From Riptortus pedestris (taxonomy: Eukaryota > Arthropoda > Insecta > Hemiptera > Alydidae): a stretch of DNA of 64,000 nucleotides. Under the pieces are notes generated by a model. It saw nothing but the letters and a program-made list of their open reading frames with translations, did no database searches and was not told the DNA's origin. The stretch covers positions 104,692,001-104,756,000 of the forward strand of contig CM032230.1 of assembly GCA_019009955.1 (NCBI GenBank), read 5' to 3'. The first letter of the stretch is position 1. Every line of letters starts with the position of its first letter. This document shows positions 13,403 through 58,264 of this stretch, one piece after another. The position numbers and the translations under genes are program-made.

Positions 13403-14980
13403 ATGGCGAACACTGCTGTGTTTTTCTTAGCAACTATAGTTGTTGTTGCGACTCTTGTAGATGGGTTTTCTATCGGATCTACCAGTGTAGAAAATGGTAA
13501 GTAAATATTATCAATATCATATTTATTAGATTATCTTATCATTCTGAAGGCCAGCTGTTGACATTTCTACTTCTTTGATGTATTTAAAAATTGTCTTATT
13601 TACTTTGGTCAATAATTAATTCATTTTAATATTTTTATTGGTGAAGTTCTAGTTGGATGCATTCCACATTGTCATGATAATATCTCTATTATTTGCATTA
13701 ACTAAGTTATGCTCAGCTCACAAATTTAGTTTATCCTCTGATGCTTTTACAATTTTACAAGCCTGACTCAAGATCTTACAGGTTACACCAATAAATACAT
13801 ACCAAACATAACTCGCAGTAACTACAACACAATTAAGAGTCATCAACACAAATGGACTGATTTTCTAACGGAACATGGACAGACAGGACATTATTTAACA
13901 AGATTTAAAACTTTAGACAAGGTCAAATGTACTTGCGACACACAAACGTTTTTACATACACTCTATGATTGTTCAACATGAAATGAAATAGATCAAATTT
14001 CATAATGAACATAATTTTAAAAGGAGGTGATTGGCCAGAACCACCTCATATATAATTTAATGAATATATTAAAGAACTCATAAATTATAGATATGTATGT
14101 ATGAAAAATTCATTAGAATATAAAGTTGATTTTGGGGAACGAGAATTATGATTCAATATATTTACCTTACATAGACTCGCAAATTAAAGAATAGAAAAAC
14201 CGCAACATCGGAAGTTAAGTTTAGCTTTTTTTTTTTCATTTATTAATTTCATTTGTAATTATCGTCCTTATTTCATAATTTTATATTTTTTCATTATCTT
14301 TGATTATGTATTAATAACCCATTAAATAGTACATATTTAAAAATGAATTTAAACTTAAATCCTACATGCTATGTGGCTAGTGAACATGTACTCAAATAAA
14401 CAACTTCTCATAGAGTTACTATGAGGAGAAAAATAAAACGAAAAAAATCTGGCATTGGTGAATACAGTTATATTTGTGAAATCTTCCTCTAAAGTTGTAG
14501 TATAATAGTCTCCGAGTTAGTAAGAGCTCTTCCTATTCGGGTTTCTCTGAATCATGGAACCAAAAGTCTTATCATTTAAAGACGTTTTCAAGGTCTCATA
14601 ACCTTTAACTCTTCCACTATCATCAGGTGTTTACTGAATGCGATTATCCTTCAGAGTCCATATGCGATCTTTCTACTTATAAGATAATTAGTATTTCATA
14701 TTTCCGCACTGCTTCTATGCAGGTGACAGGTGCAGCCCTTCTACGGTGTGCAGTACCGGGTACAAATGCTGCTCCTCAACCACCTGCTGCAAGACTACTC
14801 AACAATGCTGCGGCTCTGGGGGAATGTTCTGCTGTTCTACTTTCACATTCTTGTACGTCATCATACACTTTGAATAATTCTATATCTAATTTAGCATAGC
14901 TGATTTGCTATAATTATTTCAATTTTTTTTTTCTTAGGGCAACACCTGCCGTGGCAGTTGAACCAATAGACTTAAATTGA
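13403..14980 (+). CDS. Secreted cysteine-rich peptide A (granulin-like CC ladder), 3 exons
   Basis: Exons 13403-13496, 14723-14852 and 14938-14980 join at GT-AG sites (donors gtaagt and gtacgt; acceptors atgcag and tcttag), with phase 1 then phase 2 introns, to give 88 residues. Residues 1-21 form a signal peptide with a hydrophobic core at about 5-18, so the product should be secreted. Cysteines lie at 35, 41, 47-48, 53-54, 60-61 and 68-69: C-x5-C-x5-CC-x4-CC-x5-CC-x6-CC. The tail ends ATPAVAVEPIDLN. The start is the only in-frame ATG after the TATA box. Intron 1 carries a non-LTR retroelement relic. The paralogue at 18597 keeps the same exon 1 and exon 2 lengths and phases, which strongly supports the model. 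No characterised family is recognised; the closest resemblance is the paired-cysteine pattern of granulins, with shorter loops. Function unknown. Confidence 0.82.
13780..14400 (+). pseudogene. Non-LTR retrotransposon 3' fragment (I/Jockey/R1-like)
   Basis: The plus strand reads IKSHQHKWTDFLTEHGQTGH then YLTRFKTLDKVKCTCD and TLYDCST, which is the zinc-knuckle-like C-terminal segment after the RNase H domain in I/Jockey/R1-type elements (FLTGHG..YL.RF...C.C......L..C). Stops follow, then an AT-rich 3' UTR ending in aaataaacaacttctc. It lies in intron 1 of peptide gene A. Same family as 56195-57040. Confidence 0.6.
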
Positions 14981-15527
14981 TGGCTCCGCAAAAACCACAT
15001 ATATAAAAAAAAAAATGAATCAACCTGAATTGGCATATATTGAAAAGTGGAGGGTTCGTAACCGTTCGTAGTTTTGATTCTAAATTTTTTATTTGTTTGT
15101 GATGTTGAAACCTATCATTATTAAGAACAATTATCTCATTGTCACAGGTAAACATTATTATAAAGCCTGGCCATAAATGAATGGTCAAGAAATCATTTAT
15201 GAAAGAAAATTACATTACATTACTTTGGATTCAGAATTGTATAAGAAGCTGGTGATGTGTACCGCGCGTCCACCTGAAAGGCATTGTTCAGTGGGAATGA
15301 AGAGGCATGCATTTCCTTCGTCTTCAAACTTGTATTCCTGGAAAGAATAAACTCTAGGGAAATTGAATAATCTAAATTTATATTTTTTTAGTATGAAGTG
15401 TATAACTCTTTTCGTATGAAGTGTATAACTGTATTTAATATGTTTCATTATATACATTTGTAAATTGTTAACGTACCCAGGAATTATTTTATGGTTCCTG
15501 AAAAGTGTGAAATTTGTAAAGATGGAA

Positions 15528-15533
15528 AATAAA
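15528..15533 (+). terminator. Probable poly(A) signal of gene A
   Basis: AATAAA in the context gaaaataaattgag, about 550 bases after the stop codon. Gene B has the same context (taaaataaattgag) at a matching distance after its stop, which favours this over the other AATAAA at about 15346. Confidence 0.5.
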
Positions 15534-15559
15534 TTGAGCTGCTGAAATTTCCATTGAGC

Positions 15560-17170
15560 CTCTTCCTGTGGCCAATCTTTTATGTTAATGAGATTGCGCT
15601 ATGCCTTTTTAGTTCCTGGATCTAGTTTTAGTAGGTTTGCGCCAGTACAGTTGATGAAAAGGGACATTTGTCGTTAAGTTTCGAATTTGGGACCCGATAT
15701 TTGAAGAATGTTGGAAGCTGGTCATTAATGCTTAACAATTTATTATTTAATGATAAATGAAGTTATTTAATACTATATATTACTTTTGTGGACCGCATGA
15801 AGTGCAGTAGAGTTTTTAATTGGAATTAATTAAGTTTCTCTTCCTCTAATACATATTGCGTATCCATTCTCTCTCTCTCTGCATTACAAATTTACAGTTA
15901 TTCAGATTTAGTAGACAAATATATAAGTAGATTTATACTATAAAAATATATGTCTCGATTGAAAAATGCCGTTAGTTAAAGGTTTATCGTATTTTTTTTG
16001 TATTTTTGGTTCGCATTATTTGAGGAGTGAGTGAACAACTCTACGTACAGCCCAGTTAACCAAGGAGGACCTGGAATGTGTTTTCTCCGGTAGACTGACG
16101 GGCCACAATACACAGTGGTTATTATTTTTTCCCAGTGGGTTAAAGGGTATTCTGGAATTTTAGTAAACAAAAGAGCAGGCAATACACCACAATATTCTAC
16201 GGACATACCTAAAATTTCCAGAATTTTACTCCACAGAGTCTCAAAAAACTCAAACAACTTATTACATTTTTGCCCCTAAAACGAATGACAACAAAAATGG
16301 CCAACGACACTAAAAGTATGCGCTTTAAAAAATGTCATACCTTACTTTAATATGTAAATTTATCCGCGTAATACAGATATCGAATTCTAAAAATCCATTC
16401 TGCCCATGTAATTTCAATTCATAACACACTTACCAACACTTAAATTATAACTGTAGACCACTACTATCGGTCGAATGAAGTGTACTAAAATGAACAGTTT
16501 TAACATGATCAGCCAGTGGCTAGTTGAGGAGCGAAGCCTATTGGAGAAATGCAACAAGGTACTTCGCAAATTTCCTGAAGATCTATTAGAATTTTGAGAA
16601 ACTGGACTTGTTATTAAGTTAAAATTTATTTGATATATATATATCATCTGGCATGTTGAATTAGGTTGATGAGAAACACGGATTTTTTGTTTGTTTTTTT
16701 GTGGCTTCTACTTTTTTTTTTTTTTCAAACGCTTAGCGCTTTGGGGAGTTAAATTCGCGTCCTCAGAGCGTCAAAGCGTAGGACGGGCCTATAGAGATGC
16801 CACCGGGTTGAGCTCTGTTGATTCACTCATGACTGCATGATAGGAATTTAATTCCCGAGTGCGCGTTTGTAAAAATAAAAAAAAATAAATAAATAAATTG
16901 TGAGGAGCCACAAAAGTGTTTCTGATTAACCTGATTCGTAACCCTCACCATCTAAAAATAAAAATGACATATTCCATTATTTATTTTATAATAATACTCC
17001 TTTATTTGCTCATTTATAAAAATATACACTTAATATTTACATATTTTGTTCATAGAAAATAACAATGAGAATACAAGCATTATATGCAGACATTATAGAA
17101 CGTTTGAGCTAAATCAGTGTTAACTGAGGATTTTTGAGTTCGAGTATGTCCTAACTTTTGTGTTTTATAC
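15560..17170. other. Gene-poor spacer between peptide gene A and the RTE-like fragment
   Basis: Only repeat Q copy 1 and a GC-richer patch at about 16730-16870 (cgcttagcgctttggggag) of unknown nature. Confidence 0.45.
16035..16115 (+). repeat. Dispersed repeat Q, copy 1
   Basis: tacgtacagcccagttaacc, aaggaggacctggaatg and ccggtagactga match 59297-59370. Confidence 0.45.
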
Positions 17171-18050: not shown

Positions 18051-18469
18051 ACTGGAAATATGAAAACATATTAAAACAATGATGTTTACTAGTAAGAATT
18101 TACTTACTTAAGTATAATAGGATTCTACAAACAAAGGGTCACAATTGTTTCATATTGCATGACATTGACAATTACAATTACGAGTTATATGTAATATAAA
18201 GATCGTGCATGACAGTTGATTCTAATGAAGCAGATCTGAAAGCTTCTCTTTGAGGGAATAAACTTATTTTCACGTTAAGCTGAATTGAATTTCTCTTATC
18301 TGGTTTATTATTATTTTTTAGTGGAAGCAATTAACAGTGAATTACTTTAAATGATGAACTAAATGAATTACAGCGATACTTTCCACAAAAGAAAAAAAAT
18401 GTTTTCTTTCTGCGCTTCGTAGAAATAATTAGCATTAGAGCGATGGAATTATTCTTTTCTCCTCTGGTG

Positions 18470-18518
18470 CCAATTGAGTCTTAATTGAGTGGATTTTAAT
18501 TATAGTGTCAATTTAGTT
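18470..18518 (+). promoter_or_regulatory. Conserved upstream block shared with gene A
   Basis: Partner of 13272-13320, with the doubled attgagt motif and gattttaattatagtgtcaa. It sits at the same distance upstream of the TATA box as in gene A. Confidence 0.45.
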
Positions 18519-18553
18519 ATTTCACTTTACCTCTAGAGAGATAAGAGGAATGG

Positions 18554-18564
18554 AATATAAAAAG
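18554..18564 (+). promoter_or_regulatory. TATA box of peptide gene B
   Basis: aatataaaaag lies about 33 bases upstream of the ATG at 18597, in the same sequence context as the gene A TATA box. Confidence 0.58.
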
Positions 18565-18596
18565 ATGTGATGTAAAACAATGGGTTTCACTCGGCT

Positions 18597-21500
18597 ATGG
18601 CGAACACTGCTGTGTTTTTCTTAGCAACTATAGTTGTTGTTGCAGCTCTTGTAGATGGGTTTGCTATCGGATCAAGCAGTGTAGAAAACGGTAAGTGAAT
18701 GCTATCAATATCATATTTATTAGATTATCTTATCACTGTAAAGGTCAGTTAATGAAGTTTTTACAGTGTTTAAATAATGTCTATGTCTATATAACGTTGG
18801 TCCTAATTTAATTTTGTTAATAATGAATTCGTTTTATTATTAGCTGTTCTAAATGACAATGAAAATAATATTATCTTCCTCAGTTTGTTTGTATCATTAT
18901 GTAACTATTAGAGTACTCAAATAAATTACGTAATGTCACACTTATAACCTGCACGTATAATTCGAATTTTCCGTTAAACCATCCATCATCAAGTACAAAA
19001 GGAAAATGCAGCAAGTTTTAAGCCTTGAATTATAATGAAATTATAAAAGATAATGTGGATATTTATTATTATTTGATTACCAAATTAAAATTTGACATTG
19101 TGATGAACATAATCTTCTACCAGTCTTTTCGGCCACTTTTTTAATTGTATCAAACATTCCGCCTAAATCAAAAGATTAAATTTGTTAAAGGATGAAATGG
19201 GAAGAGATGGAGCTTAGGGAAAGTGTGGAATCAGAAACTGCAAACATTTCTGTCATTGTGCATCGAATAGAAAAATGTTACTTTAGCAATTTTGTTGATC
19301 AGGAAATAATCTAAAATTGATGTAAGAAGGTTTGTGGCTGATGAATAAGAAATAATATCACTAGTATTTCAGTTTACCTCTTTATATATTTATTTACTTG
19401 CTCTGCATGTGTCACGTCTCCTAGACATCTGGATTGGAGCATCAATTTTACTTATAACATATCTTTCTACTTTTTTTTGTTATTGGATTTACGATAGATC
19501 TCAGAATGCCCCATACAAGAAAAGTAGAGAGATACTTTATAATATGTAAAAATTTTACTCCTGAAGGAAGAACATAGAAGAACTAAACTGGACAAAATTG
19601 TGTTTTTATTTGTTAACTTTCGGCCACAGTAGTAAAAATATTGATTTAAGGGGAGTCAATAAAATTATTATTTAGCGGTTTATACATATTTTCTATTATT
19701 CGAAAAGTAATGGTAAGAATTACCATTATGGTTTTTGATTAGTTTCTACAACAGGTTACTATGTCGGAAACGTAGACGGTCATTCATTTTCTAGTTATAA
19801 TGTTTTCGAGCTCTATTTATTATTTGATGTTACCAAAAAGTAATATTTAACCGTTTCATTTAATAATAGAACACATTTTCGTTAATGACCCAAAATGGAA
19901 ACAAGATGAACATTTAGGAGGTTGGCGGTTAAGAGAATAGGTGAAATATAAGGTTGTACAACTTCGATGTTGTTTGTTGGATCGAAAAATATTAAATAAC
20001 TTACGTTGTTGATGAACTAGTTTTCTAAACTAGTTGTTCTATACAAAGTTTGAATATTAACCGATTTATTTATAAGTTTAAAGTTCTCAGTTTTTTTTTT
20101 GTCCATCATCATCACTCCTTCCAAGTTTTAATTCAAGGTTGTCCACCACCGCTCATGTCGCCCACCCGATAAGAGTTTGTAATTGTGTTTATAGGCCATC
20201 ATTTTCTGAACAACGAAAGATAGTTTTCTTCAGTGTCAATTTGTTCCTCAGGCATCTCGGTGGAGAATGTTTTAGATATTAAAAATAGAAAAAAAAGCGC
20301 AGCTGATAGTCTCTGTTTGATTTTAGAGAACTGATTGTTAAAAGCAGTTACTATAAAGTTTATCCATAATAGAGTGGGGGATAAATTATCGTAGATAATA
20401 ATAAAAAAGTTATTATGAGGTGTCTATTTAAATTTTCAAGGTAAATTGAGCTAAATGGAATTTATGGAGCACTTACATAAAGGAAACACAAAGGAGGAAA
20501 TATGAATGCTTACATTATATTCAGACCCTAATCTGCAGGGGGTGCGTAAACTAAGCAGATTTCCCATTTCGTGGGAATAATACTTATCTCTACTCCCCAA
20601 AAATTCTCTATTTCTAAATAAACATCCGACGAGTAGAAGTGGATGTTTAGTGAACGTTAAAATCAAGTAAGTATGATTTACTCTTTTAATATTTGATTTA
20701 CGAAAGAGTGTATAGAACCACAATTGCAGAGAATCACTAGTTTAACAAGGTTGGTTTCGTAACATTTTCGAGCTGGCTCATAAAGCCAGAGATATTTTGA
20801 ATTTGGGAATCCTCCCCTTAAACCTCTTCTATTTTTGGTCCCATTATAGTCATTATCAAATATGACCATTAGAGTTAAAAAAAAGAACAAAAAAAAGGGT
20901 TAATTAAAATCGTATTTGATGACGTCATCACACTACGTATTTGCATTTATCGTACATACTAAATATTCAATGAAGACAATATTTGGTAGATAATATAGCG
21001 TGCCCTCGCAGTTATGTTTATTAGTGTTTGTTATGTTTTTGTGAACTCTGTTCCGAACCATTTGTTGTTATCTATTCAAAGATGGATTGTTATATTATTT
21101 ATTGCATTTTGTGTTCTTCAATCTTTTATTTTTTGAAAAGTTGTTTTTTTTTTTTTTATAAATTACTTTCAAGTTTTTTTATTGTACGTTATAAAACCCC
21201 GTACATTAAAAATCTAAACAATTTTCCGATACGATGCGTATATCTGAGATATTTCGAACGTTTGAACCCCCCCCCCTTCTAAGCCCCGATTTCAGCCGTT
21301 GACGAACTTGACCTTTGGTTTTTTTTATTGCCTATATATCGAGTTTGGTAACACGAAAGAGAAACATTCCCACCCATAAGGTGGTAATAGATACGCATAT
21401 GAATATGAATATATATATTATAATATATTGAACTGCCTTCATTTTCGGCATCTCCTAGGTGGGATCGATGGCCATTTGAGGAAATTCTTCGAAAATCGCG

Positions 21501-24265
21501 TCACGAGTATAACCTCAAAAGCTTAGGAAATCTGCTAAAAATGAACCTTACGGTAAGGTAATGGAGGGGCGGGAGTAGAAGTTTAGAGTGGATCATATGT
21601 TTTAAAGGGAACGAGTGAGCTCACTGTGGATGAAGCCTCTGCTAGCAGGCGATGGTGCGGTGATTGGATAAACTGAAATAACACTACTGCACAAACTTTT
21701 GGCGAGAGGCAAGATGAAGTTCGCTCTGAGGGTGCATGCAAGTCCTAGTGACAACTGTGACATTGTCTCATGAATGATTTCACAGGCAATCCCAACGAGG
21801 TTCCGACAGAGAGGTTCGAACATAGACTCGAGGTATTGTCTCGACAAGGTATCGATCCTTAGGCGATATTAATAGTGTACATTCTCAGACATATTCTCGT
21901 CCAAATCTATGCAGTAACTAATGAAGAAAAGTCTGATAATATTGTACTACTAAAACTAAAACAGGAAAAAACTATTGTAGATAGATAAACTCGTTCACTA
22001 TCAGTTAACATTTATACACAAATATTTAACTTAAGCAAACATTGCTCTATAATGTACTTGAATTGTATAACGTTATGAAACCTGAATTTGATCTCGTGTA
22101 AATGTTCTGAAGTGCGATATTTTTTTTAATATTAGTGACCCAACTAACATAAACAATGAGAAAATGTAAATTCTTACATTTTTAAAAATGTGGTCCTGGT
22201 GAAATATTTTCATAGTTAATCTCAGGTCAGCCATATGTGATAAGGTCTTGGTCTTAACGAACTTCAACAATGGCGAAAAAGATCACCTTTGCTGGGGTTT
22301 TTACAATTTATTCGTTGTTTTTCATGGAGTCATGGATGTAGTGCTCATCGTAACAATTTTTTTTTTTTTTATTTGGTTTGTGCCCCACATCGATGGTGAT
22401 TGGCAAGATCTCTAATTGTTAAGAGGTAGTTAGAATAATATATTTATTCCTTCGTGTACTTACCTTTGTTATACTTTATTTTTATATTATGGAAAATATT
22501 AATTAAGTATCGGATTGTTTCTCATATCCGTGCTTTGTCTAAATGAATATAATAAAAGTTATCCCTTTTAAATCTTTTTAGGTATGCTGTAGACCTATTC
22601 TATTTTATACTATATGTTTTTGTAAATGTTTATATGTTTAAGATATAGTATTTGTGGAATATATTGACTGTCAGTTAATAGTTCTGTCATATCGTAGGGT
22701 ATGTGAAGGTTTTTTCGTTGGATGCAGTCTGTCAGTATGCGTTTTATCGTAAGGTGTTTGTTGCATGATTTACATATACAATAAAAAAAAATTTAAATCC
22801 AGACATTTATATAGATTTAACTCTTAATGTTTGAAAATCATAAATTATTGAAGAATAGAATAAACTGCTACGAAATATTGGTGAAGCAACTGAAATGAAG
22901 TGTATTTATTTCATTATGTGTAAAAACCTCATAACTGGGTGAGCCAATAATATTTTTGATTTAACAAAATGTTACTGTTTTTAGCTATTGATATTTTTTT
23001 GTCCTTATAAACATTTTTCCTTAGAATAAAACGTTAAATGTAAAATATTTCAAATTCATACTTAATACTCATAATACATTGTCTAACATCTTACTGTCCG
23101 TTCAGTAAAAAAAATTGTCAACTAGCATTTTAAATCACCAATAATGATGATTATCTACCATTTATAAAAAAAAATTAATAAATTTAGGAATAGTCTGATC
23201 CCATATGTCCAGCTGGGAAATAATGATTAAAAAATTCTAAAGTATTTCTCTTCCATAAAAAATCAAAAATAATATAATATTACCCAGTTGACCTGAAATA
23301 TTTAAATAATATAATTTTACCCAGACAAGGAGGCTGACCTTCAAAGGTACTCATCTAATGGTGACAGCTATATTTGTTGTATTTAAGAAATGATGTTTAG
23401 AATACTGTAAATATATGAAATTCATTTTTAATTTATTTTACCTGTTTTGTTATTACTCTTCCATTAAGATAAAAATGTAATGCTTCATAAATGATAAGAA
23501 ACTTGGCTCCACATTAATGGAATAACTAATCTGATCATAAATTATGATGAGTAACATTTTCGAAAATAATAATCTTACGTACAAATGTATCCTTGATGAT
23601 GTCTGGAAGTTTCTTAACGTATTTCAAACAATGAATGATATGGTGATATCATACAATTTGTTGATCTTTAAGCAGTTGCACTCCCCAAAACGATATGTTT
23701 TTCTCAAAATATTTATCTTTTTGATTATATGAAACATATTCTTCTGCCTTGTACGTTACGATGATTATAAGTCCCATTATTTTCGTAAAATAGGATAATA
23801 TTTGGTTCCATAATGTGCATGAATGAAAGAAATTAAATCATTTTTTGACTTCTTAAAGAACAGTGGAGGGGATTTGATCTCCTATCTATTTTATATAAGT
23901 ATATACTATCTTTTGCAATTTAAACTTGATTTTTTGAGTTACCCAATGCATAGCGTGATATGTTAACCGACTATTGGGAAAAACATGTTACTATATCTCT
24001 TCTAGGGACTACTATTTTCCATTGGAAGTAATTAGGTGTCAAATATAATATAAAGCAAGAAGACATTAGTTTCTTGCTTAATTCATTAATTGGGGAACCA
24101 ATGGATGTTTTGGTCTAGAGTAAAATTGGATAAGGAGTTGAGGAATGTCTTGATCATTTTAACAGATTTAGCTAAAGAGAAATCAGGTATTAAGGTAGTA
24201 GTCATGTTTCGACAAATGTCCATCTATCCTACCCAAGAGATGACGAAAATGTGGTCCGTTTAAAA

Positions 24266-24332
<67 letters not shown>

Positions 24333-25971
24333 CCTGTTAACACTCTAGTGGTCGTAATGTTTGTTTGATCCTTACCAAACTGGATATTTATACGTTTTGT
24401 ATAAAAATAAAGATCATGTTCGTTAACGGCTGAAATTAGTCACAGTGAAATTTCAAATTTCAAAAATTTTGAAAAATTCGTCATATCTCCGTTATTATTA
24501 TACGTCTGACCGTAAAAGTGTACAAATCTTATTGTAGATTAAATTTTCTTTGCATGTTACTATATGCAGCTTTTGGCGATCTTGACGGACTCATGTCATA
24601 TTCCCCTTCCACTCCTACTCATGTCATATTAACAGGAAGCTGTCATATCATGAAGCACTTTATTTGAAGCTTAAATACCAAGTATTGGTCTCATTGAACT
24701 TTAATTTTTTTAGATAAGAGCAGATACTGGGATAGGGGTTTTCTTTTCTTTTTCTTTTTTTTCTAATTTTATATCTTTTATAATTAGATAAGTATAATCA
24801 GCAAATAGAATGTATGTCGCTGTTTAAGATTACTGAAAAGTAGCCTATTGTAATAATCATTTTTGATTCTAAAATATCATTAGAATTTTTCAGATTTTTG
24901 TTAAGTACTACTGGACTTTATTTATTCATTTGCGGACGGTGGGAGTGAAGATAAATTATTCAGGTGAATACAAAACTCCGACAGTGAGGAACCGCGAAGC
25001 TTTTTATCCAGCTGAACTTTATTTATTTAATACAGAATGAATATAGGTTTTTATGTATTTCTTGATAAAATCTAAACATTTTATATTCAAATACATTTCC
25101 CAATCGCTTTTTGTTCATTCACTAAAACAATTCATTGCATTACAGGCTGTAGCTGACTAGGCTAGCTTAGAACAAGAAGAGAATGTAAGGGGGAACGGAA
25201 GTTTTAAGTTGAGGAACATACGGGAAAACTTGGCACTGCTGCTACCCCTGTTTTAGGGGATTTTATAACACCTCTGCCCAAAGTTAAACAGAACTTTAAC
25301 TTGAAAAACTTTATTTGGAAAAACACTCCTCTCTCAGGGAAAGATTCCCTTTCAACTCTTAAAGTGCTCGTAACATTTGACACTGACAAAGGACTAGATT
25401 TGGGACTACTCCTTTTCTACTTCTTCTTTGGTTTTACACATTTCATGTTTGATTTTTTAAATGAATTTATTTTTTTTTACCTGGAAGGTGCTGTTATGTA
25501 GCACATTATTTAGTTTTTCTATTTGTTAATGACAGTTCTCAATATCACCGCACTTAATGGCTTTACTCAATCCAGATTTTCTAGGTTAACTCTACATCAA
25601 TTTACTTAAGAGGGCGCTGCTCTCTAGGAGTCACCCATTGGAGTTATATGACAAATCTGAAATGTGTGCTATCAAATGAGGGAAACGTTTTGCGTAATTA
25701 AAATTGTTGGCGAATTTACAAAAACTTTCATGAATTAATTATCTTATTAGTATTTTGTTAAAAAATACTTGCTAATATAGCTTCCAATTGCTCAATAAGT
25801 TCCCTAAAATTATAAAAGGAATTAAGTCTGGGCCACGGGCTATTCCAAGTTTATCAGATTTCCCTTAAGGGAAGTCAGATAATGAGATCGAACTCATGAC
25901 GTAATTTCCGAAAAGCTCCTCAAATTCTCATCGATCTTACCAAGGAAACGACGAAAATGAGGTCCGTTGAA

Positions 25972-26006
<35 letters not shown>

Positions 26007-27414
26007 CATATCTGCTAAAGCCCTATAGGTCGTAATTTTTGTTTAATCGTTACCAAAGTCGATATATTAACGTTTTATGTAAAAATGAAGTCAAGTTCGT
26101 TAATGGCTGATATCCGACCCTTGGGAGGGGCCAAGTTTAGAGGATAGAATTCCAAAAATTCTTAATACATCTTAATTGTTTAGAACCAATCTTATTGTCT
26201 ATGTACGTCTAATGTTCTATAACTGTTGATGTGTACATCTTTTCTATGTATTGAATATTAAACGAGATACTTACATATTTCAGTTTTCCGGCCACTTAGA
26301 AAACCAAGAGAACCACTTCAATCCAAGGCTAAATATGGTTTTAAACCTAATATGGTTTTAAACCTAATATGATTTTAACTGAACATTTACTTTGTGAGAT
26401 ACTTATAAATTCGTTGCGTGATGACTTCACCAGTCAAGATTTTACGTTCTTGCCCTGAAAATGTTTATTAGATCTATACGATAATGGGTATTTAACCATT
26501 TCAGTCAACACTGAAAATCATATTTGTTATTGGCTGAAATCTGAGTTGGGGGATAGAGGGTCTTTTTTTTAACCCTCAGTACCCCCCCCCCAATAAGTTT
26601 CAATAAGTTGTCCTCCAATAGTTACAAGAAATTATTTCAATTCTACATTTTCACATTTGTACGTGTGGCAGGTACGTGGACGTGAAGTAGGTAATTTACA
26701 ATCATATTGTCTAAATACAGGAAATATATTTTTTGGTATTTTTAATTAATACATCACATAATTAGGAGTTAAATACTAGAGAAAATCGACTGTGCTTCCC
26801 AATTATCAAGCTTTGTCGAGATATAGACAAATTAATTCATATTTAATGAACATGAAGTGGAAAACTTCACAACAGCGCATGAGTGTGAAGAGCCCGATGG
26901 CTTTGGTCGGAGGTCAAGTGGTCAGTTTTACTCTAAATCCCGGTGCTCGTACAGCTAAAAAAATCCGACTCGCAGGGACTGCGTAAACTAAGCAGATTTC
27001 TCAAATACTGGGTGATCTGATCTTACTACATATTCTCTAGTTCTAATTTAAATGCCGATGAGCAGAAGTGGGTGTTAATATAATCCGTTTCAGCCCATAA
27101 AATAATTGAAATGTAATTATAATTAATTCTTTATGACTATTTTACTGCTCAAATACAGGTGACAGGTGTAGCCCCACAATGGTGTGCGGATCGGGCATGA
27201 AATGTTGCTCGTCATCCACCTGTTGCAAGGCAACTCAGAAATGTTGCGGAAGTTCTGGAAGATTTTGTTGCTCTACCGTTTCATTCTTGTATGTGATTTT
27301 ATTTTTTTAGGATAATTCTGTATTTAATACATACTAACTTACTTTTAATACTTTTATTTTTTAATATTTTTTTCTAGGGCAACTCCAGCTTTGGCAGTTG
27401 AACCACAAGAATAA
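18597..27414 (+). CDS. Secreted cysteine-rich peptide B, paralogue of A, with an 8.5 kb first intron
   Basis: Exons 18597-18690, 27159-27288 and 27378-27414 give 86 residues. Exon 1 (94 nt) and exon 2 (130 nt) have exactly the lengths and phases (1, 2) of gene A. Residues 1-21 are a signal peptide almost identical to A. Cysteines are at 35, 41, 47-48, 53-54, 60-61 and 68-69 (C-x5-C-x5-CC-x4-CC-x5-CC-x6-CC), and the tail ends LATPALAVEPQE. Intron 1 is about 8.5 kb and filled with dispersed repeats and microsatellites, against 1.2 kb in A. It is formally possible that exon 1 and exons 2-3 belong to separate broken copies, but all splice sites and phases are intact and no competing exon was seen in between. 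Secreted product of unknown function. Confidence 0.72.
20520..20650 (+). repeat. Family M terminal fragment, variant
   Basis: gtgcgtaaactaagcagatt and gagtagaagtggatgt match the left end of a family M variant. The same variant occurs at 26962-27078. Both are in intron 1 of peptide gene B. Confidence 0.5.
21225..21540 (+). repeat. Dispersed repeat family M, right-hand partial copy
   Basis: Carries gatatttcgaa, gatttcagccgtt, cgagtttggtaac, a short TA-rich tract, tcggcatctcctaggtggga and ggaaatctgctaaaa. In intron 1 of peptide gene B. Confidence 0.58.
24185..24715 (-). repeat. Dispersed repeat family M with a long (TA)n tract
   Basis: Minus-oriented copy: gtccatctatcctacccaag, the (TA)n tract at 24273-24327, cgttaacggctgaaatta, atctccgttattat and tcatgaagcactttatttga. 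In intron 1 of peptide gene B. Confidence 0.6.
25852..26300 (-). repeat. Dispersed repeat family M, minus copy
   Basis: Starts with the palindromic terminus cagatttcccttaagggaag, then gacgaaaatgaggtccgttg, a (TA)n tract and taatggctgatatc. In intron 1 of peptide gene B. Confidence 0.6.
26962..27078 (+). repeat. Family M terminal fragment, variant
   Basis: Starts actcgcagggactgcgtaaa, then ctaagcagatttctc; shares gagcagaagtgggtgtt with 20520-20650. It ends about 80 bases before exon 2 of peptide gene B. Confidence 0.52.
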
Positions 27415-28492: not shown

Positions 28493-31097
28493 ATGGCGAA
28501 CCAAGTAGTTTTTATCCTGTGCATTTCTCTGCCTGCCTTCTTCGTGTTCGCGTACTCATCGATAAATGAAAGTAATGATTCAATCAATTATATTATGTGT
28601 GATGTGGAGAGAGTGGTTGTGGAACTCTTGGGCGATTCGGCAAAACGGCTTTATTAAGCGATCAGACTTTCGTGTTAGTTTCAAGGCATCTTCAGTTCAC
28701 TGTCCTTTGGACTGATGAGCGAGTAACTGAGGCGAAAGTCTTCTCTGCTAATAAGGAGTTTCTGTCGGATTGTGCACTTATTATCATATTTATAATCATA
28801 TTAAGGCAGGAGAAGGAAAATAAGTGATCATGTCTAATCCGAGCACAAGTTTCTAAAGCTCAAACCATAGTCAAGACTTTTTTCGAAGACTCGACGTCGA
28901 AGGCATTGTTAGTCGAGTTATATTTTTAAGACCTTCATGGGTCGGGAAGGATTTGTCACTATCTGTGAACATAGATAAAGATATCCTTTCATGGTCAAGG
29001 CTTAAGCTGGGAAAGTCTTTTTTTTCTTTCTTTCTTTTTTGGTGGGAGTGAAAATCTATCAGATTTTTTATTAGCGTTTCAGTATGTGGTTGTAATATCA
29101 TTTCTGAATTCTTTATTTATCATTAGACCATTAAATTAACATTTGAGCTTTAGAAAGATGTTCTCGAAATGCTGTTTGTCTCTTGGTGTGCTGGTCCAAT
29201 TGATATATCTGTATACATTGGATATTTACTTCAATCTTGTGCAAACTAACCTTGCGAAATATTTGTGCATTCAGTGGGAAAATTCTAATTTCCAATTTTA
29301 AAACTCGGTGCTACTTTTCATCCACGCATATGAACTAATAAAACAAAATTCTCAATACAAACATTACTCTCTAGACCACTTATCAAAATTTAATATTAGC
29401 GCCTAAATATTTTGAAAATAAAAACATTTCTACAACTTCATTGTGGATTACAGACAGTTAAATCTTTGAAATTTACAAATTTTCTCATGAAACATCTAGT
29501 TCAAGCACTATTTTTTTATAACTATTTTTTTTAAATACAAAAGAATTACATTTAAAGAAATGGTCAAATATCGAGTAGCACTTCCCTTGCACTAATCTTT
29601 AAAAAAATATGTGGTAAAATAATGTTCAATAACAGTTTGATTTATTCAAATTGTTTTATACTCAAAATATACATTCTTAAAAACATATAACATTCAAGCG
29701 CCTTGATCTGCGTAGTCAGTCACTAAAACTTGGAAATAAATCACCAAAGTCCATGATTTCCATTAACATGCTAAACTAGTACAAACTGGCCAATAACAGC
29801 TCTGATACACAATGTGCTACGAAATAAGCTTTAGTGGAGAAAATGTCGTATATTGAAAATAAAAAAAGGTCTATCAAATTTTTGTTTTCGAAAATTTTCA
29901 ATAACAGTAAAATTAACCATAAATCAATTTTTTTTAGGACAGTATACTTGTAGTGCAGATTTTTAAAAATTCATCTCCTTGGGGCTAGAAGTAGGTGAAC
30001 GTAAGGAAACCCCACACTTAGCTTTCCATACATCAACCATTTTTGAATATTCCATATTCTGAGATTTTTAACGGGTAGTCAATGAGAGCTTATAGATGAT
30101 TTACGACACTGTAGAGAACAACAAGTTTTCAATTCCCTCCTCCAAAGAAATTAAGAAATTTTGGTAATATTACAGTCGGTTTTATAATAGTACTTTGTAA
30201 TGAAAATCATTCTCATCATATTACAAGAAGAAAAAAATTAACCAATTATTATTATTATTCTTTATTAAAGAAATAAGAGTAGCCTGACTACACAGCTGAA
30301 TCATCAATCCCATGACATTTAAATTGAATGCTAATGAAACTAAAGTTGGAATAAAATAAAAGTAATAAGTTTGCAACAAAAAATATTTATTTTTGGTAAA
30401 CTCATTTAAGGTGTAAACATATTTGTTTTAAAACACTTATACTTGTGACAATGGAAAAAAAAATTCTGGACGTTTTGATGGACACACTGGCGATATTACA
30501 AAGGTTCTGTTTGTATTCTCAACATGAGCAGCAACATTACAAGTACTGACAAGTGCAAGTACTGATTTTATGAAAATTAATGCTGCGTACGAAATCATAA
30601 CTTTCTAAATAATTTATTTTAATTGAGTCATTTTATCACAAAATAAAGTACTGACATAATGAAAAATAATATTTAAAAAAAATGGTTTTGGGAATATTCT
30701 CCCAAATTACTTCGTTTCCAACTATATAAAAATGATCCTGCTTTCATTATTTCCTAATTTCGTGTAAGCATATGAAAAGGTAAGTATATTTATTAAATAA
30801 TAATATATTATTTCATATAAATGACATAAGCTATAAATGTGACATTGATATTGCAGTTGACAAGTGTTCGTTAAAGACCTACTGTGAAGAGGGTAAGCAT
30901 TGTTGTACAAACCTGACCTGTTGCGAGAATGAGCTAGTTTGTTGCAGAGGTGGCCTCTACTGCTGCGAAAAATCAAACACAACTAATTTATCTCGATTTG
31001 AGTATGTATCATCTATTATTATCAATTGTCATATATGAACTTATCACATAATGGTTTTTACAGCGTTGCCATGACTGAATCATGGTTTTCATTATAG
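28493..31097 (+). CDS. Secreted cysteine-rich peptide C
   Basis: Exons 28493-28571, 30857-31001 and, most likely, 31064-31097 give about 85 residues. The ATG at 28493 opens a hydrophobic signal peptide (residues 1-20). Donor gtaatg is weak but in phase 1, joining to acceptor ttgcag to read NEIDKC, the position equivalent to ENGDRC in gene A. Cysteines are at 30, 36, 42-43, 48-49, 55-56 and 62-63 (C-x5-C-x5-CC-x4-CC-x5-CC-x5-CC). Exon 2 ends at a gtatgt donor in phase 2, as in A and B. The third exon is uncertain: acceptor tttacag at 31063 gives a tail ending ESWFSL, while attatag at 31097 gives a different, slightly longer tail. A weak TATA-like tataag lies near 28448. Secreted product of unknown function. 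Confidence 0.7.
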
Positions 31098-31151
31098 ATC
31101 ACATATACTTAGGTGTGTTTTCTATTTGTGATCCTTAACTATTACTGAAAT

Positions 31152-31275
31152 CTCTCTCTCTCTCTCTCTCAAAAAAATAAAATAAAAATAAATAAAATAA
31201 ATAAATAAATAAAAATAAATAAATAAAAAAAATAAAAAAAATAAATAAAAAAAATAAAATAATAATAAAAAAAGA
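31152..31275 (+). repeat. (CT)n followed by A/T-rich low-complexity tract
   Basis: tctctctctctctc followed by about 100 bases of aaataaa-type simple sequence just downstream of peptide gene C. Confidence 0.85.
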
Positions 31276-31552
31276 TATGAAATTTGCGGCCTAAGTAAGC
31301 CACTCACTGTCTGGCTCTTTTTATCTGAATTTCAGGAAATTGCCATATTGCTTGTATTAACAAGACACTTGTCTTTTTTGTCTAAACAGTTTTTACCTTT
31401 TACGAATTCAGTAGCTTGTCTAAAGTTGAAGTTGAATAGCTTAATGGTATATAAATAATAGTCCTTTAGATAATTGACTCTCACTTTAGGTCTTAAAATA
31501 CTAACATCTAAATTTTGCTTCATTCGAAAAAGAAAAAGGACCAATTAAATAA

Positions 31553-32023
31553 AAGTCCGTCTCGCAGGGACTGCGTAAACTAAGCAGATTTCCCTCGTGA
31601 AGTTTAATAATAGATAAACCTACATACTGCTAACTCAACACCACCGTGAATAATAAGTGAATAAATACAAACGGTAATAAGAAAGCTTTTCCGCGTCTCA
31701 AATGTAATAAAACATGTCTGGCACAAGAACATATTAGCATGCATCTCGTATAATAAAAATCTCTGGAAGACAATATTTGGTATTTCAGCTTCGAATAATG
31801 TGGTTTATTATAAAACAGAGTATTATTTTTGTAAAACTATTGGAAGTGAAGGGGTTTACTGTATGCTGAAAAATGCAAATATCTCAGTTAATATTCAGGA
31901 TAGAGAATAAATGTATATTACAACATTTATATTATATTTAATTTGCAATAAGATTTATTCTATACACTTTTTCGATCCGACTTATAGTAACAGAGATATT
32001 TGGAATTAAGGGAAATCTGCTAA
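31553..32023 (+). repeat. Dispersed repeat family M, copy with internal deletion
   Basis: Starts agtccgtctcgcagggactg and ends aagggaaatctgctaaaa, but the microsatellite half is missing: the sequence jumps from gagatatttggaatt to the right terminus. Confidence 0.62.
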
Positions 32024-32029
32024 AAATGG

Positions 32030-33900
32030 GCTATGGTCGGAGTACACATGCACTGAAGATGGTAGATCGGTTGGTTATTCCAAGAGCGTGCATTAGATTT
32101 TATTTTTAATAATGACCCATTATGAAATTAAAATAAACGTATGCATTATCATCGTTAAGCGACACAGCTACTTGTCTTAATCGTGCTCTTGTATTATCTA
32201 AAGTGGGAATTCTATTACATTGCATTGCGATGTTGAAAGGAGGGGGACTGTAACGTCAACTTGCCAAGGTCGTCTCTTTTCTCCTTAATTAAATTTAAAT
32301 GATTTCATCCTCCTAAAAATGCTCAAAGTGGATAATATGACATTTGATTATCTACAACATTAGCTGAAATAAATATGTTATATATTAGACCATGGTAGAA
32401 TTCGCTACAAATTGAAGAGTTTATCTCGACATCTCAACAAATGAACGAAATAGTTAAACCAAATTATTTATGCACATTACACAATTGCTGTAATATATCG
32501 TCGCAGATATTTTTAGGAAAGTCCTTCCTTCAAGAAGTAGAACTAATCTCGGCTGTTCTTTTTACAGACCACAGTTATATTAATGTATCCTAATAAGTCC
32601 ACTCTCCAATATGTTTTCATACGGGCACAAAAAGTAACAAGCCACCAAATTTTAGAACGCAATCCAGTAATAAGTGTAACAATGTTCAATTCATGTCAAA
32701 TTTCTTGAGCTTGTGAGAAGTGCTTTAAGACAGACTGGTAGAAGTAAGGATACTTGCGTTAATAAGTGAACGAAATCACAGTGTTTTTTTCCTATTTAAT
32801 TCCAAACAAAAATGAATTAGCGAAACCTGTATATGTAATTGCAAGCTTAAGTGAATCCACTTTTTATGTTTTATTTAGAGATTGCAAATTTGTGCATACC
32901 TAAATATGCTGAAACAATTTGAAAAACCTATTTCGTAATTTTTATTTTTATTTCAACGAATGCGCATGTTCTTCGAATGAAATAAATATATTTTATAATG
33001 TTGTTTCTTTAATGACTACGAATGATTTTATTTATTTTTTTCTTAATCTCTTTCAAACAAGACCCTTCCATTAAAAATTCTGTGAAAAACTAGTTTATGA
33101 CTTTATAGATTAATTCATTCAGTAATTTTAATGTAAATTGGTTATTTGTTTTAGGGAAATTGTTATTAATAAGGTGAGTGCTAGCCGGCGTTTCGAGCCT
33201 ACAGTTCTTCAGTAATCTGATGTACATATATCGATTGTTTGTAATACTAAATGTAAAAAATTAAAATTATGCATGACATATGTTGTTATATTTTCCTTAT
33301 TTATATTCACGAATAAATTATATGTTATTTAAACTATTGTTATTACTTTCCCAATTTGTCTTTCTGTGTTAGCATTTTACTTCTTCAACTTTTAACACTC
33401 CTTATGCCATCTGTACTCCTGGAAAGTCCTGGCGTTTGTCCTCTTTTGATCACTTATTCAGTTTTCAAAAAGATGACGAATTTTGTTACAATCTAGTTGT
33501 ATTAGAGAGATTAGATTCCTGAAGCCATTATCTACCATAACAATTTCTGTAAAGGCCTACAAGTAATCTTAGCAGACTTCTCTTACGGGAAATTAGTTAT
33601 TGGTGAACTTACTACTGGTGTTTTTCGGAAATGTTCTGAAATCTCCATCAATCCTATATATGAGCTTGCAAATTATTTATATATTTTTTCTGTTAACTAA
33701 CGACGTTTTCGGGATTTAAGAAGAAGGGCAAAACGTATAACAACTACTTATTTCTACTAACTAAAAATGTCATATAATTAATATTGCTTAGTGTATTGTA
33801 CTACAATTGCTATTTCACACACATTTGTAGGCGTTTTGGCCAAACGTATACCCCTTCTCTTACTCCTGGGATTTTTAGACTATGCAACGGTACTTCCGAG
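32030..33900. other. No gene recognised
   Basis: AT-rich spacer between the + strand and - strand gene groups. Only a Penelope-tail-like segment at 33170-33225 was recognised. Confidence 0.5.
33170..33225 (-). repeat. Possible Penelope-like 3' tail
   Basis: Minus strand reads ttactgaagaactgtaggct then cgaaacgccggctagc. Only the tail is recognisable. Confidence 0.33.
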
Positions 33901-40200: not shown

Positions 40201-40321
40201 ATTCTGTTTGAAGATTGATTTCGTACTTACTCTTCGCATTACCCAACGTTGAATCTGGTATTGCCAATCGTAGGAAGAGCAATAGAAACGCTGACACAAT
40301 CATTGTATGCTTGAACTTCAT
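37262..40321 (-). CDS. Secreted cysteine-rich peptide G, two exons
   Basis: On the minus strand, exon 1 is 40321-40231 and exon 2 is 37380-37262 (donor gtaagtac, acceptor tatgccag, phase 1), giving 69 residues. Residues 1-20 or so are a signal peptide (MKFKHTMIVSAFLLLFLRLA). Cysteines are at 33, 38, 44-45, 50-51, 57-58 and 66-67: C-x4-C-x5-CC-x4-CC-x5-CC-x7-CC, with a proline after the second CC pair (CCPVSKRCC) as in D and F. The protein stops two residues after the last CC; no third exon is needed. Exon 2 is 119 nt, the same as in gene F. The 2.85 kb intron holds a non-LTR relic and a possible LTR. An AATAAA follows the stop almost directly (minus strand, 37257-37252). Function unknown. Confidence 0.75.
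38600..38850 (-). pseudogene. Non-LTR retrotransposon C-terminal relic with frameshift
   Basis: The minus strand reads RITQHLTGHGPTRWYLQWF, then after a frameshift near 38720 VKCKCDGQTEQTSKYVIFYC and KQLERRRKKF. This matches the post-RNase-H C-C-H-C region of I/Jockey/R1-like retrotransposons. It sits in intron 1 of peptide gene G. Confidence 0.5.
39165..39820 (-). mobile_element. Possible solo LTR
   Basis: Minus strand carries a GC-richer core with a TATA box (gccctatataagga, about 39475) followed about 100 bases later by a polypyrimidine and AT-rich tail, and then, near 39180, gttggtggcccttccta, which could be a primer-binding-like segment. No paired LTR or internal coding region was found. 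It lies in intron 1 of peptide gene G. Confidence 0.3.
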
Positions 40322-42310: not shown

Positions 42311-44339
42311 TTATGAGGTGCTGGTGATGGGAACAGGCCTCAAAGGTAAGAATCTGGAAATTAAATCATTGAATTAGGGGTGACTTTGAAATTTGAAATG
42401 AAATTCATAATACTATTGCAATCATATTGCTTACATTTTGTCGTCAAAGCAGCAAAAATTTGAGCAGCATCTATACTTGTTTGGACAGCAGGCTATAGGC
42501 GAGCAGCATCTGTGGCCGTCATTGCAGATGGAAGGTCCACAGACTCTATCTGTAATGAAAAATATATATTAACTAAATTATACAGATTTGTGAGTAGTTC
42601 AATGGTATCATGCTAGACACGTGTCTGGGTGACTATCTGAAACTCTGAAGTCGTACACTATGTTTTCAGTTATTGTGACAGTAACGGCTTTATTTCCGCT
42701 CGTTTCACTGATGTCTGCTCAGCATTTCGAGCCGATTGATGAGCTGCTCGAATAAAGAACTTAAGAATCTCGGGGTTTGGGCTGGCTGGTGGAGGTCCAT
42801 CATTATCGGGAGGAAAAAAAAGTTTAAAAACACCTCCACACTCAGTGTCTCGCCGGAGATGTCGGATCAATAGGGACCAGCTCTAGAAGACTGAAGATGG
42901 GATTGTTCGCCCCGAAAGTACTTATATTTAATAAATGAAGCATTAAGACTAGAGGTGTTTTTGACCTTTTTATCCTTCCGTTGTTTAAGAATATTGGTTT
43001 AGAACGTCATGGTACAAGATTATTTCTATATGTCCATCCAGATTTAAAACTAAAGGAACTAAGATATACTAGTTCTAAATTATTTTATTCCGAGGGAGCT
43101 TTCCGATCACCTCTACTGTTTCGTGAAAGTAATTTTATTACAATAGAATGAGAGTACATTTTCAATATTTACTGTAGTTTCTTAAATCCGCATTAGCGGC
43201 TACTTTACCATTTAGTTTTTCCTTAAAACCCAAGTCCATAAATCCTCAAAAGTGTCTGCTGTATGATCAAGAAGCTGAAGAAAAAATATGCCGCATATTT
43301 CTAAAATACTCAGCATATTTTTATTCGGTCTCAATTTCTGAAAGAGCTTTCTGAGTTCCTGAACCTGATTCAGTAAATATGCTTCATAGTTTATATGTGT
43401 GTACATTTGCATAGCAATGATACATTATGTTTTAATTTGATGTTATTGTTGAAAGTCCCACTAAAGATTATTATTATTTATTAATGTCCACTTTCTGCTA
43501 CTGAGGCTAATTAGGACGGATTATCTACAAGTTACCACGCTTTTCTAGGCAGGGTGGGACTAAAGATTTTTTATTTAATGAGCTCGTCACTTAATAAATT
43601 CCTATTTGCTCAGGTGGGAATCGAACTCTCCATTCTAGGTTTATCATGTGAGATTAAGGGCAACGCTTTTACTCACATTACTAACCTGTTCCCTGAAATA
43701 GACTTTATATATACCCTCAAGATTGACAAAAAAAAACATATCTATGGAATACGGCTTTTCATGGGCTCAGATATCAGTTGATTTATAATAATTTGCTTAA
43801 TAAGCGCCAGATGCTGTCATACTGCTGGATTTTAGTGGAACATGGAGACATATGAAACATCGTGCCGTGATTCTTGAACAGACGTGTCGTCAAAACCAAA
43901 AAAACGCTAATTTATTTATTCTAGTAGCCCCTTATTTACGTTCCTAAGCTTAATAGAAGGTATTTAAGTCTGTCAAGGAACACTTGTCTTATCACATTGA
44001 CCCATTAAAGATTATGGAATTGGTTAGTCTAAAACTTTTAACTTACATGAACTTGTGATTTCATCGCTGTACCCGTGTGCAAGATCTGTCATTCAATAAG
44101 AATGCAGTAGCTGAGTATTAACATTGTTTTCTCTTTTAGAACAATATTTAACTTATAACTGCTGCATTCTTTAACTATTTTGCAACTTTTGTCTACTCAC
44201 TACTCATGGAAACTGCTTAATAGAATGTTGTTTTTTTTTACTTACCACCAAGTTCTGTCTTTGGTACCTCTTCACTTGCGACCGAAAGCACTATCAAAAA
44301 TAGCCCCAGAACCCCTCCAAGCAATACGGTTTTCCTCAT
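42311..44339 (-). CDS. Secreted cysteine-rich peptide D, three exons
   Basis: Minus-strand exons 44339-44246, 42549-42435 and 42353-42311 (donors gtaagt and gtaagc; phases 1 and 2) give 83 residues. An in-frame ATG three codons upstream (44348) is possible, but starting at 44339 gives a 94-nt exon 1, identical in length to A and B. Signal peptide is residues 1-22. The mature part reads GDRVC at the junction (compare GDRC in A and B). Cysteines are at 35, 40, 46-47, 52-53, 59-60 and 64-65: C-x4-C-x5-CC-x4-CC-x5-CC-x3-CC. The third exon is 43 nt, as in A, and encodes a tail ending RPVPITSTS. Intron 1 contains a Penelope-like tail and a SINE. Secreted product of unknown function. Confidence 0.8.
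42885..42960 (+). repeat. Possible Penelope-like 3' tail in intron 1 of gene D
   Basis: agactgaagatgggattgtt followed by cgccccgaaagtacttatat, a Penelope-tail-like arrangement. The adjoining open stretch on the minus strand (42670-42870) is not recognised. Confidence 0.33.
43469..43693 (-). mobile_element. tRNA-derived SINE, copy 3
   Basis: Minus-strand copy in intron 1 of peptide gene D. It has the B-box-like gagttcgattcccacc and the tRNA-unrelated body, more diverged than copies 2 and 4. No clear target-site duplication. Confidence 0.7.
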
Positions 44340-44391
44340 GGTGTACATGTCTGTTATCTTCTGGATTGTAAAATATAATTTTTCCACAATA

Positions 44392-46468: not shown

Positions 46469-46512
46469 TAAGGAATAAGTACTATAAAATTATAAGTTAT
46501 TTCAGTAAAGAG

Positions 46513-46655: not shown

Positions 46656-46715
<60 letters not shown>

Positions 46716-53045: not shown

Positions 53046-53995
53046 TCAACCATGCCTATGGGGTTTGTACAAATTGCTCCTCATCGCTGGAACACCTCTG
53101 CAAAAAAAACCAATCCCTTTAATGAATGGTATTTAACTTTTTTTTTTTTTTAAATAAACATTACTAATTAAACTAACCGAATATCGTTGTATTTTCTCAA
53201 GCAAGCCATGCCCCAGGGTTGTTTCTTGCAAACTCGTCCAATTTGGCAACAAAATCTTTTGTCGCTGATGCAGCAATGCGTTCCTACTTCACATGAAGTT
53301 AGTCCACATTTTTCTCCCAAAATATCAGAATCTAAACAATCATTAGATTTTGTGAAATATTATCATTATCATGAAAACTCATTACAATATGAATATCACT
53401 AATTTGAATACATTTAGATGAAATGTTATGCGATGTATAATGCAGAACAATTATTACATAATACAGTAGAAAGAATACATTCTAAATGGCCTCAAATACA
53501 TTTTTGAGCTGATTTGACGTAGACATTAAAAATAAATTAAAATGTGAACAAAAAAAAAACAGGAGGATTACAAAAAGAAGTGAATGTTTCTTTTTATTCA
53601 GACTAAACCTTCAAATACTAAATCTGGATGTGAAAGTTTAATTATTTGAAATTCTGTGGAGAGAGAAATAAGGTACGGAAGCTTCAATTAAAAATTGAAA
53701 AAAAAGTTGAAGTGAACTTTTAATGATTCCGGGTACATAAAAAAAAAAAATATTATATTATAGTCCATGTTTCAGAGAATAACCACTATTCGCTTCCTCC
53801 AAAGTATACTCCTCAAAACGAACCTACCAGATACGTCAGTACTCTTGATTTCTATATTTACTAAATTTTTTTTTCTTAGTATATTACTTAGGAAGTTATA
53901 ATTAGCTACTTACCATGGGACGCATTGTCTTCTTGGCTAAGCACAACTGACGTAACGAAAGTGAGAACAGTCAAAAGAGAAATAATCTTCAACAT
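53046..53995 (-). CDS. Divergent secreted cysteine-rich peptide E (8 Cys), three exons
   Basis: Minus-strand exons 53995-53914, 53331-53178 and 53097-53046 (donors gtaagt and gttagt; acceptors ttgtttag and ttttgcag; phases 1 and 2) give 95 residues. Residues 1-20 form a signal peptide (MLKIISLLTVLTFVTSVVLS). Cysteines are at 36, 41, 47-48, 55-56, 62 and 71: C-x4-C-x5-CC-x6-CC-x5-C-x8-C. The first half matches the other family members (C-x4-C-x5-CC) and the splice phases are identical, but the last two CC pairs are reduced to single cysteines and loop three is longer. The C-terminus is basic and ends YKPHRHG. TATA-like and poly(A) motifs flank it. It is best read as a diverged member of the cluster; function unknown. 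Confidence 0.72.

Positions 53996-56157: not shown

Positions 56158-56195
<38 letters not shown>

Positions 56196-57190: not shown

Positions 57191-57222
<32 letters not shown>
57168..57222 (+). repeat. (TA)n(TG)n microsatellite
   Basis: TA units followed by about 14 TG units, at the outer edge of the large inverted repeat. Confidence 0.88.
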
Positions 57223-57223
<1 letters not shown>

Positions 57224-57598
57224 TGTGTTTGTGTGCGTGCATATAAATATATGAATCTATTGCGGCTTGAATTTCAGGCAATATAATTGTATATCTGGTC
57301 AGCAAGAGTGAACATTGAAAATTATACCTGAAATTAAAATCTTCTAGAATGTACTTCGTTTATTTTGTTATTTAGATTTTTTATTTTTTTTTTTTTTACT
57401 TTTTTGTTGGATACAAATAATACAAGATATTTGATAATAAAGACAATTTGAGCGAGTAAAGTGTAATTGTTTTTGTGAACTTTCATTTTCGAGTGGTAGA
57501 AAATTTAGGTATAATTCTTGTAGAAGCGGTTCTGGAAATATAGGTACACAAATTTAATTAGGTACTTCGTTTATTTTCTTTTTCATTTATAAGAATTT

Positions 57599-58264
57599 TT
57601 AACGCCTGCAGCAATAAAAGCCTGCACCACAGCAAACTAAATCATTTGGACAGCAACTCTTTGTTGAACAGCAGTGGTAGTTGTATAAACAGGAAGTCGT
57701 GTTGCTGCATATGTCAACTAGAATAAAGAAAACGATAAAATTAAAAATAGAGTTAGAACTTTGACATTTTTTTACATTTATTATATGCAAAATAAGATAA
57801 ATTCGGAGTTGCCAATTTTAATGTTATTAGATGTAATCCTTGTTATAAATGAATTTAAGTTATCCTGGTTTAATAAGAAATATGGATTATTTTTAATTCC
57901 AATAAACCGTGACGCTAGATGGAATTCATAGGATTACAAAGATTATCATATTGATCCTTTCTTCAAATTATTTTCGTTGTGTTGGCTTTATAAAAATCAT
58001 GTGAATTGCATTCCTCAGATTTATGACGTTATACCTAAAGATTTACCATAGCATGTTAAACAATTATAACAATTTATTTGTAATTACTAAAACATTAAAA
58101 GAAAATGTAAGTATATCCAGTCGTTCATTAGTACAAACCCAAAATATACTTTTTATATTGTGAGTGTCATATTGACACTCCTACTTACTAGTCTGCCCAA
58201 TTTCAGGTCCCGTAATAAAGATTACTAGTGAAGTTAAACCCAGAAGTGTCAGGATTGAGATCAT
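57599..58264 (-). CDS. Secreted cysteine-rich peptide F, two exons
   Basis: Minus-strand exons 58264-58189 and 57717-57599 (donor gtaagt, acceptor tattctag, phase 1) give 64 residues, the shortest of the family. Residues 1-19 are the signal peptide (MISILTLLGLTSLVIFITG). Cysteines are at 29, 35, 41-42, 47-48, 54-55 and 61-62: C-x5-C-x5-CC-x4-CC-x5-CC-x5-CC, followed only by two arginines and a stop. The loop CCPNDLVCC parallels CCPNKYRCC in D and CCPVSKRCC in G. Exon 2 is 119 nt, as in G, suggesting a two-exon subgroup that lost or never gained the third exon. AATAAA (minus) stands at about 57575. Secreted product of unknown function. Confidence 0.8.

Follow-up and report, generated by a model that had tools for sequence, protein, structure and literature searches.

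The 64-kb window of Riptortus pedestris DNA analyzed here carries, between positions 13403 and 58264, seven spliced genes (A to G) for small cysteine-rich peptides, six with a 10-cysteine ladder and one (F) with an 8-cysteine form. Judged by identity to deposited proteins, six of the seven are members of the already known cysteine-rich secreted protein family of R. pedestris, and the seven together are probably symbiont-selecting antimicrobial peptides of the midgut crypts, of the crypt-specific cysteine-rich (CCR) type. They likely belong to a set that would help a gut organ choose its bacteria. The observation is thus a sound one of a family already known; what the analysis adds is the locus itself, third exons, gene D, a GATA motif upstream, and a modular history for the pairs A/B and G/F.

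When all seven precursors were used as a search profile, eight proteins were retrieved, six of which are titled 'Cysteine rich secreted protein' of Riptortus pedestris; these six pair with A, B, C, E, F and G at 94-100% identity to the spliced models (Table 1). Gene D found no deposited match in two protein searches with D in the query alignment (at most 100 words per whole alignment), and the second and third protein searches added no relatives. The original prediction, which was made from the DNA alone, had taken the family to be undescribed; this is contradicted by the deposited proteins and by publication of the group as cysteine-rich secreted or CCR proteins (PMC3653873, PMC7734397, PMC12632191; statements from the literature refer, here and below, to the available portions of the papers cited, unless a whole main text is named). 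Features of that group found here comprise identity to a deposited member (six of seven, D being unmatched), a leader (7/7) and at least six cysteines (7/7).

When spliced explicitly, all seven genes yielded open precursors; donors are GT, acceptors are AG and the first intron is in phase 1 throughout, and exon 1 encodes a hydrophobic leader in each, a predicted signal peptide judged by reading the translation; both points agree with the original prediction and, for six genes, with the deposited proteins. The single-intron structure that had been proposed stands for intron 1 only: in A, B, C, E and F, a phase-2 intron is followed by a third exon encoding a C-terminal tail, whereas D and G have two exons, with the stop codon within exon 2. 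It was the C-terminal tails of the deposited proteins that led to these third exons, which the two-exon reading had missed. The deposited matches also fix the start codon of gene E at 44348, support the weak-looking donor of gene C (AAA/GTAATG) and are consistent with the long first intron of gene B. Exon 1 of A resembles that of B so closely, however, that the match alone cannot fix which exon 1 is used by B.

The precursors are 64-95 residues long and contain 8 or 10 cysteines in all seven cases. The cysteine spacing is C-4/5-C-5-CC-4-CC-5-CC-3..7-CC in A, B, C, D, E and G, as originally described, and C-4-C-5-CC-6-CC-5-C-8-C in F. The ladder pattern has nine match starts in the window, compared with none in 100 first-order Markov simulations of it. 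A six-frame scan of the window for stretches with at least 6 cysteines per 50 residues returned 22 rows, of which the top six are the six ladder exons (10-11 cysteines each); F scored 9, tied with an out-of-frame reading of B exon 1 at 18545, and no further ladder-like exon was found among the 22 rows. Scans of the 64-kb window for Rfam families and tRNAs gave no matches.

Table 1. Peptide genes and associated features in the window, with the closest deposited proteins.
Feature	Position	Strand	Details	Deposited match or alignment
Gene A	13403..14980	+	exons 13403-13496 (signal), 14723-14852 (10-Cys ladder), 14938-14980 (tail)	83/88 identical to P0002 (UniRef R4WCY8)
Gene B	18597..27414	+	exons 18597-18690, 27159-27288, 27378-27414; intron 1 ~8.5 kb	85/86 identical to P0001 (R4WKT0)
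Gene C	28493..33215	+	exons 28493-28571, 30857-31001, 33155-33215	91/94 identical to P0004 (R4WIP1)
Gene D	37262..40321	-	exons 40321-40231, 37380-37262; stop in exon 2	sequence only
Gene E	42311..44348	-	exons 44348-44246, 42549-42435, 42353-42311	84/86 identical to P0005 (R4WMM6)
Gene F	53046..53995	-	8-Cys form; exons 53995-53914, 53331-53178, 53097-53046	95/95 identical to P0003 (R4WCN4)
Gene G	57599..58264	-	exons 58264-58189, 57717-57599; stop in exon 2	64/64 identical to P0007 (R4WRE3)
GATAAG upstream of A	13346..13351	+	begins 57 bases before ATG	
A block	13252..13633	+	promoter, signal exon and start of intron 1	83% over 396 columns with B counterpart
B counterpart of A block	18451..18841	+		alignment with 13252..13633

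The cysteine-rich secreted proteins of R. pedestris were defined by Futahashi 2013 (PMC3653873), where 97 genes from midgut expressed sequence tags (ESTs) were placed in this class by the presence of a signal peptide, at least six cysteines and a lack of similarity to genes of Drosophila or Acyrthosiphon, and 'many, if not all' of the 97 were preferentially expressed in the symbiont-bearing midgut fourth region (M4) and/or M4B. These proteins were later equated with CCR peptides, some of which act on the symbiont (PMC7734397); the same abbreviation stands for carbon catabolite repression in PMC11995993. CCRs were reported to kill or inhibit bacteria, and CCR-sensitive mutants of C. insecticola were strongly reduced in crypt fitness and outcompeted in the crypts (PMC12632191). 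The effect was described as selective for non-symbionts (PMC11893276), and CCRs have been counted among the host-defence peptides of R. pedestris (PMC11597323). As a group, the CCRs are regarded as antimicrobials that aid selection of the Caballeronia symbiont (PMC3653873, PMC7734397, PMC12632191). The proposal that the peptides are secreted and possibly defensive is therefore partly borne out: they form a clustered, predicted-secreted family, and 'defence' points in the direction taken by this literature. M4 expression, antimicrobial action and the lowered fitness of sensitive symbionts are, in these papers, stated for the CCR group as a whole rather than for these seven genes, and it is from the group that we infer the tissue expression and antimicrobial activity of A to G.

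A shared regulatory motif may link the genes to the midgut. The hexamer GATAAG occurs on the same strand upstream of B, D, F and G as well as A, and on the reverse strand upstream of C, so that six of the seven genes have it within 150 bases upstream on either strand. In a test of the 150-base upstream regions of six genes (B was omitted since its flank is 90% like that of A, at 131/145 positions), GATAAG ranked first of 566 hexamers, being present in 5/6 promoters with a background of 7.6% (p 1.5e-5, or ~0.03 once corrected for ~2080 possible hexamers; runner-up p 1e-3); the genes are paralogues, and their promoters need not be independent in such a test. On the same strand, GATAAG lies within 150 bases upstream of 108 of the 2337 window ATGs with enough upstream sequence. 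A role for GATA factors in regulating midgut genes of insects has been described (PMC13398162), and the cluster may be under GATA-factor control. A literature search on R. pedestris cysteine-rich peptides and GATA turned up only a psyllid genome paper, and PMC5690694 yielded no usable information on GATAe. Just upstream of G, a direct duplication (58384-58628 and 58685-58917; 78%) could touch the regulation of that gene.

Several points weigh against a CCR-type, symbiont-selecting role. In Table 2 of PMC3653873, three of six symbiosis-candidate cysteine-rich genes gave no significant difference between symbiotic and aposymbiotic insects by quantitative reverse-transcription PCR; M4 expression is a group-level statement, not a gene-by-gene one for these seven; and the tie between the R4W entries and the 2013 cDNAs is a shared name and species. 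On the regulatory side, E is without GATAAG and has AGATAA only, the motif had been spotted by eye ahead of testing, and its corrected p value is the one given above. Core net charges reach +4 in B, but the cores of C (-1) and G (0) are not plainly cationic. Near-neutral cores would suit gut-luminal structural or protease-related factors, for example midgut cathepsin inhibitors or epithelial protectants, and many cathepsins are present in the R. pedestris midgut libraries (PMC3653873). Such a non-antimicrobial function is nonetheless unlikely, as the CCR group has been reported to be antimicrobial (PMC7734397, PMC12632191) and no inhibitor family was matched in Pfam.

The original prediction had also compared the peptides with granulins, and the comparison is apt as regards the order of the cysteines. 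Granulins have a 12-cysteine pattern with CC-x8-CC and two closing cysteines. The peptides share with Granulin (PF00396) the order C, C, CC, CC, CC, CC and the x5-x5 loops at the start, but have CC-x4-CC (CC-x6-CC in F), 10 or 8 cysteines, and lack C11 and C12. Searching Pfam with hidden Markov models, a check which had been proposed with the prediction, placed the peptides in no family above cut-off: the Granulin model scored 9.5-10.4 bits, short of its 20.9 cut-off, and did so solely for gene C and the protein deposited for it (best E 0.12, in 2 of 14 rows; gene C itself E 0.77-1.5). When the profile of the mature domain was compared with Protein Data Bank (PDB) sequences, granulin A was the top match, at a non-significant E of 0.3, and three of eight matches were granulins; in this sub-threshold alignment all ten cysteines are in register with granulin A, whose loops 3 and 4 exceed those of the peptides by an insertion of four residues and by one residue, respectively. 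The precursor profile gave four PDB-sequence matches, all of them proteins other than granulins. Shuffles with the cysteines held fixed (n=10, two from each of five cores) gave no Granulin match and one weak conotoxin match (E 0.81), a thin control that is uninformative either way, with only two shuffles from C, the sole Granulin-scoring gene.

Structure prediction, another proposed check, gave for the G core a confident model of four short strands and no helix, with a pLDDT of 86.4 and a predicted template modelling score (pTM) of 0.49, from a 14-row alignment in which several rows are near-duplicates; a Foldseek search with this model returned 14 matches with E values of 10 or lower, among which there was no granulin, and no solved fold was matched. 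Membership of the granulin family was rejected because of cysteine count, loop length and sub-cut-off scores, and the peptides fold perhaps like a granulin rather than being one. The idea that they are granulin-type signalling peptides, in effect a shortened granulin half-domain acting on host cells, draws on the identical cysteine order and on the granulin A alignment, but is very improbable given the same PDB, Pfam and Foldseek results and the missing loop and closing cysteines. Toxin-like knots were represented by three PDB-sequence matches (E 0.34-0.98, precursor profile) and were set aside. Insect defensins were likewise rejected, as cysteine number and spacing differ and the predicted G model is without a helix. 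Other matches were one unrelated weak Pfam match in the G exon plus its intron flank (E 0.15) and one unrelated NCBIfam match at E 0.18. Hemipteran saliva is rich in small secreted cysteine proteins, which would favour a role as effectors, salivary or venom-like, that the insect introduces into plants. This last reading is the least probable and is not favoured, since the deposited namesakes fit the naming of the midgut EST study (PMC3653873) and the upstream GATA motif fits the midgut (PMC13398162).

The likeness between the A and B blocks of Table 1 is weaker 3' of ~13550, and identity is about half outside the block. Rough Nei-Gojobori estimates on few sites gave synonymous (dS) and non-synonymous (dN) divergences of 0.14 and 0.04 in the signal exon, and of 1.88 and 0.20 in the mature exon, where synonymous sites are close to saturated; for the non-cysteine codons of the mature exon, dS was 0.94 and dN 0.29. 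A relative of E has a core 26/31 identical to it and a signal/pro region only 11/27 identical, which argues that signals are not intrinsically conserved. A closely similar promoter and signal exon joined to a divergent mature exon suggests that the promoter-signal block has undergone gene conversion. In exon 1, the protein deposited for A differs at one position from window B and at four from window A, whereas its exon 2 is A-like (one difference versus nine). Conversion best explains these patterns; another A-like paralogue, a third one located elsewhere in the genome, could also lie behind this deposited sequence. The family had been supposed to be rapidly diversifying, a view which these few comparisons do not support: the mature core appears, from A/B and the E relative, to be constrained and not fast-evolving.

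A second pair concerns G and F. Protein P0006 (142 residues) contains a G-like core (22/34 identical) followed by an F-like core (22/36), and in the window G and F are adjacent, on the same strand and in the same order, 3.6 kb apart. Either a split or a fusion may lie behind this arrangement. The structure model of the two-domain protein was poor (pLDDT 61.7) and was not used. Between G and F, at 56092-56766, lies a 224-residue open reading frame (ORF) with a weak zf-RVT match (E 0.043, below cut-off), a weak likeness to retroelements. It may tentatively be proposed, at somewhat less than even likelihood, that the cluster is built of swappable modules, in which a GATA-switched promoter and signal exon is homogenized between neighbours by conversion, the core exons are old, distinct and constrained, neighbouring G and F derive from the two halves, now apart, of a two-domain peptide that a relative still has in joined form, and one midgut switch would yield a panel of non-interchangeable symbiont-selecting peptides.

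The window also contains repeats. A tandem array with a 141-base unit (47 codons; 10.8 copies, ~90% alike) occupies 49706-51226; it holds an open frame of 140 residues (50784-51206; no Pfam match), and stops occur in all six frames across the array. A 28-base array of 18 copies at 33908-34411 overlaps long ORFs at 33778-34612. Between the peptide genes, a dispersed family (36281-36890, 40688-41272, 46511-47004, 63327-63712, 25846-26275 and 24156-24585) is ~68-91% alike among the matches listed, in both orientations.

In a gut symbiosis that serves as a model, CCR peptides have been reported to act as a filter on the part of the host, and resolving the locus gives precise gene models, adds D as a new candidate member and offers a testable shared switch. 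In the mechanism envisaged, the cluster would be turned on by a GATA factor of the midgut, and the leader encoded by the signal exon would direct secretion of the peptide into M4 and its crypt lumen; exon 2 would contribute the disulfide core and, in the genes that have one, exon 3 a short variable tail. In the active form, short beta strands would be stacked compactly and locked by disulfides. The locus offers a handle on how a host may keep expression common while core peptides differ, and argues against these peptides being simply fast-evolving. As far as the available literature could be followed, the genomic cluster, third exons, gene D, GATAAG enrichment and A/B history are new; a term search of the main text of the R. 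pedestris genome paper (PMC10985886) found 'crypt' 0 times and 'cysteine-rich' once, in the references.

Among known systems, insect defensins are likewise small, secreted and cysteine-rich, but have six cysteines (PMC3653873) as against 8 or 10, with paired cysteines, in the peptides described here. Aphid BCR and legume NCR symbiosis peptides are comparable as small secreted cysteine-rich peptides of symbiotic organs. The likeness to the R. pedestris cysteine-rich secreted or CCR peptides extends to name-bearing entries for six of the seven genes, the hydrophobic leader, the 8-10 cysteines and the short precursors, whereas clustering, a third exon, gene D and upstream GATAAG are not met in the available portions of published CCR accounts, Lachat 2024 excepted, and are what this locus adds to that group.

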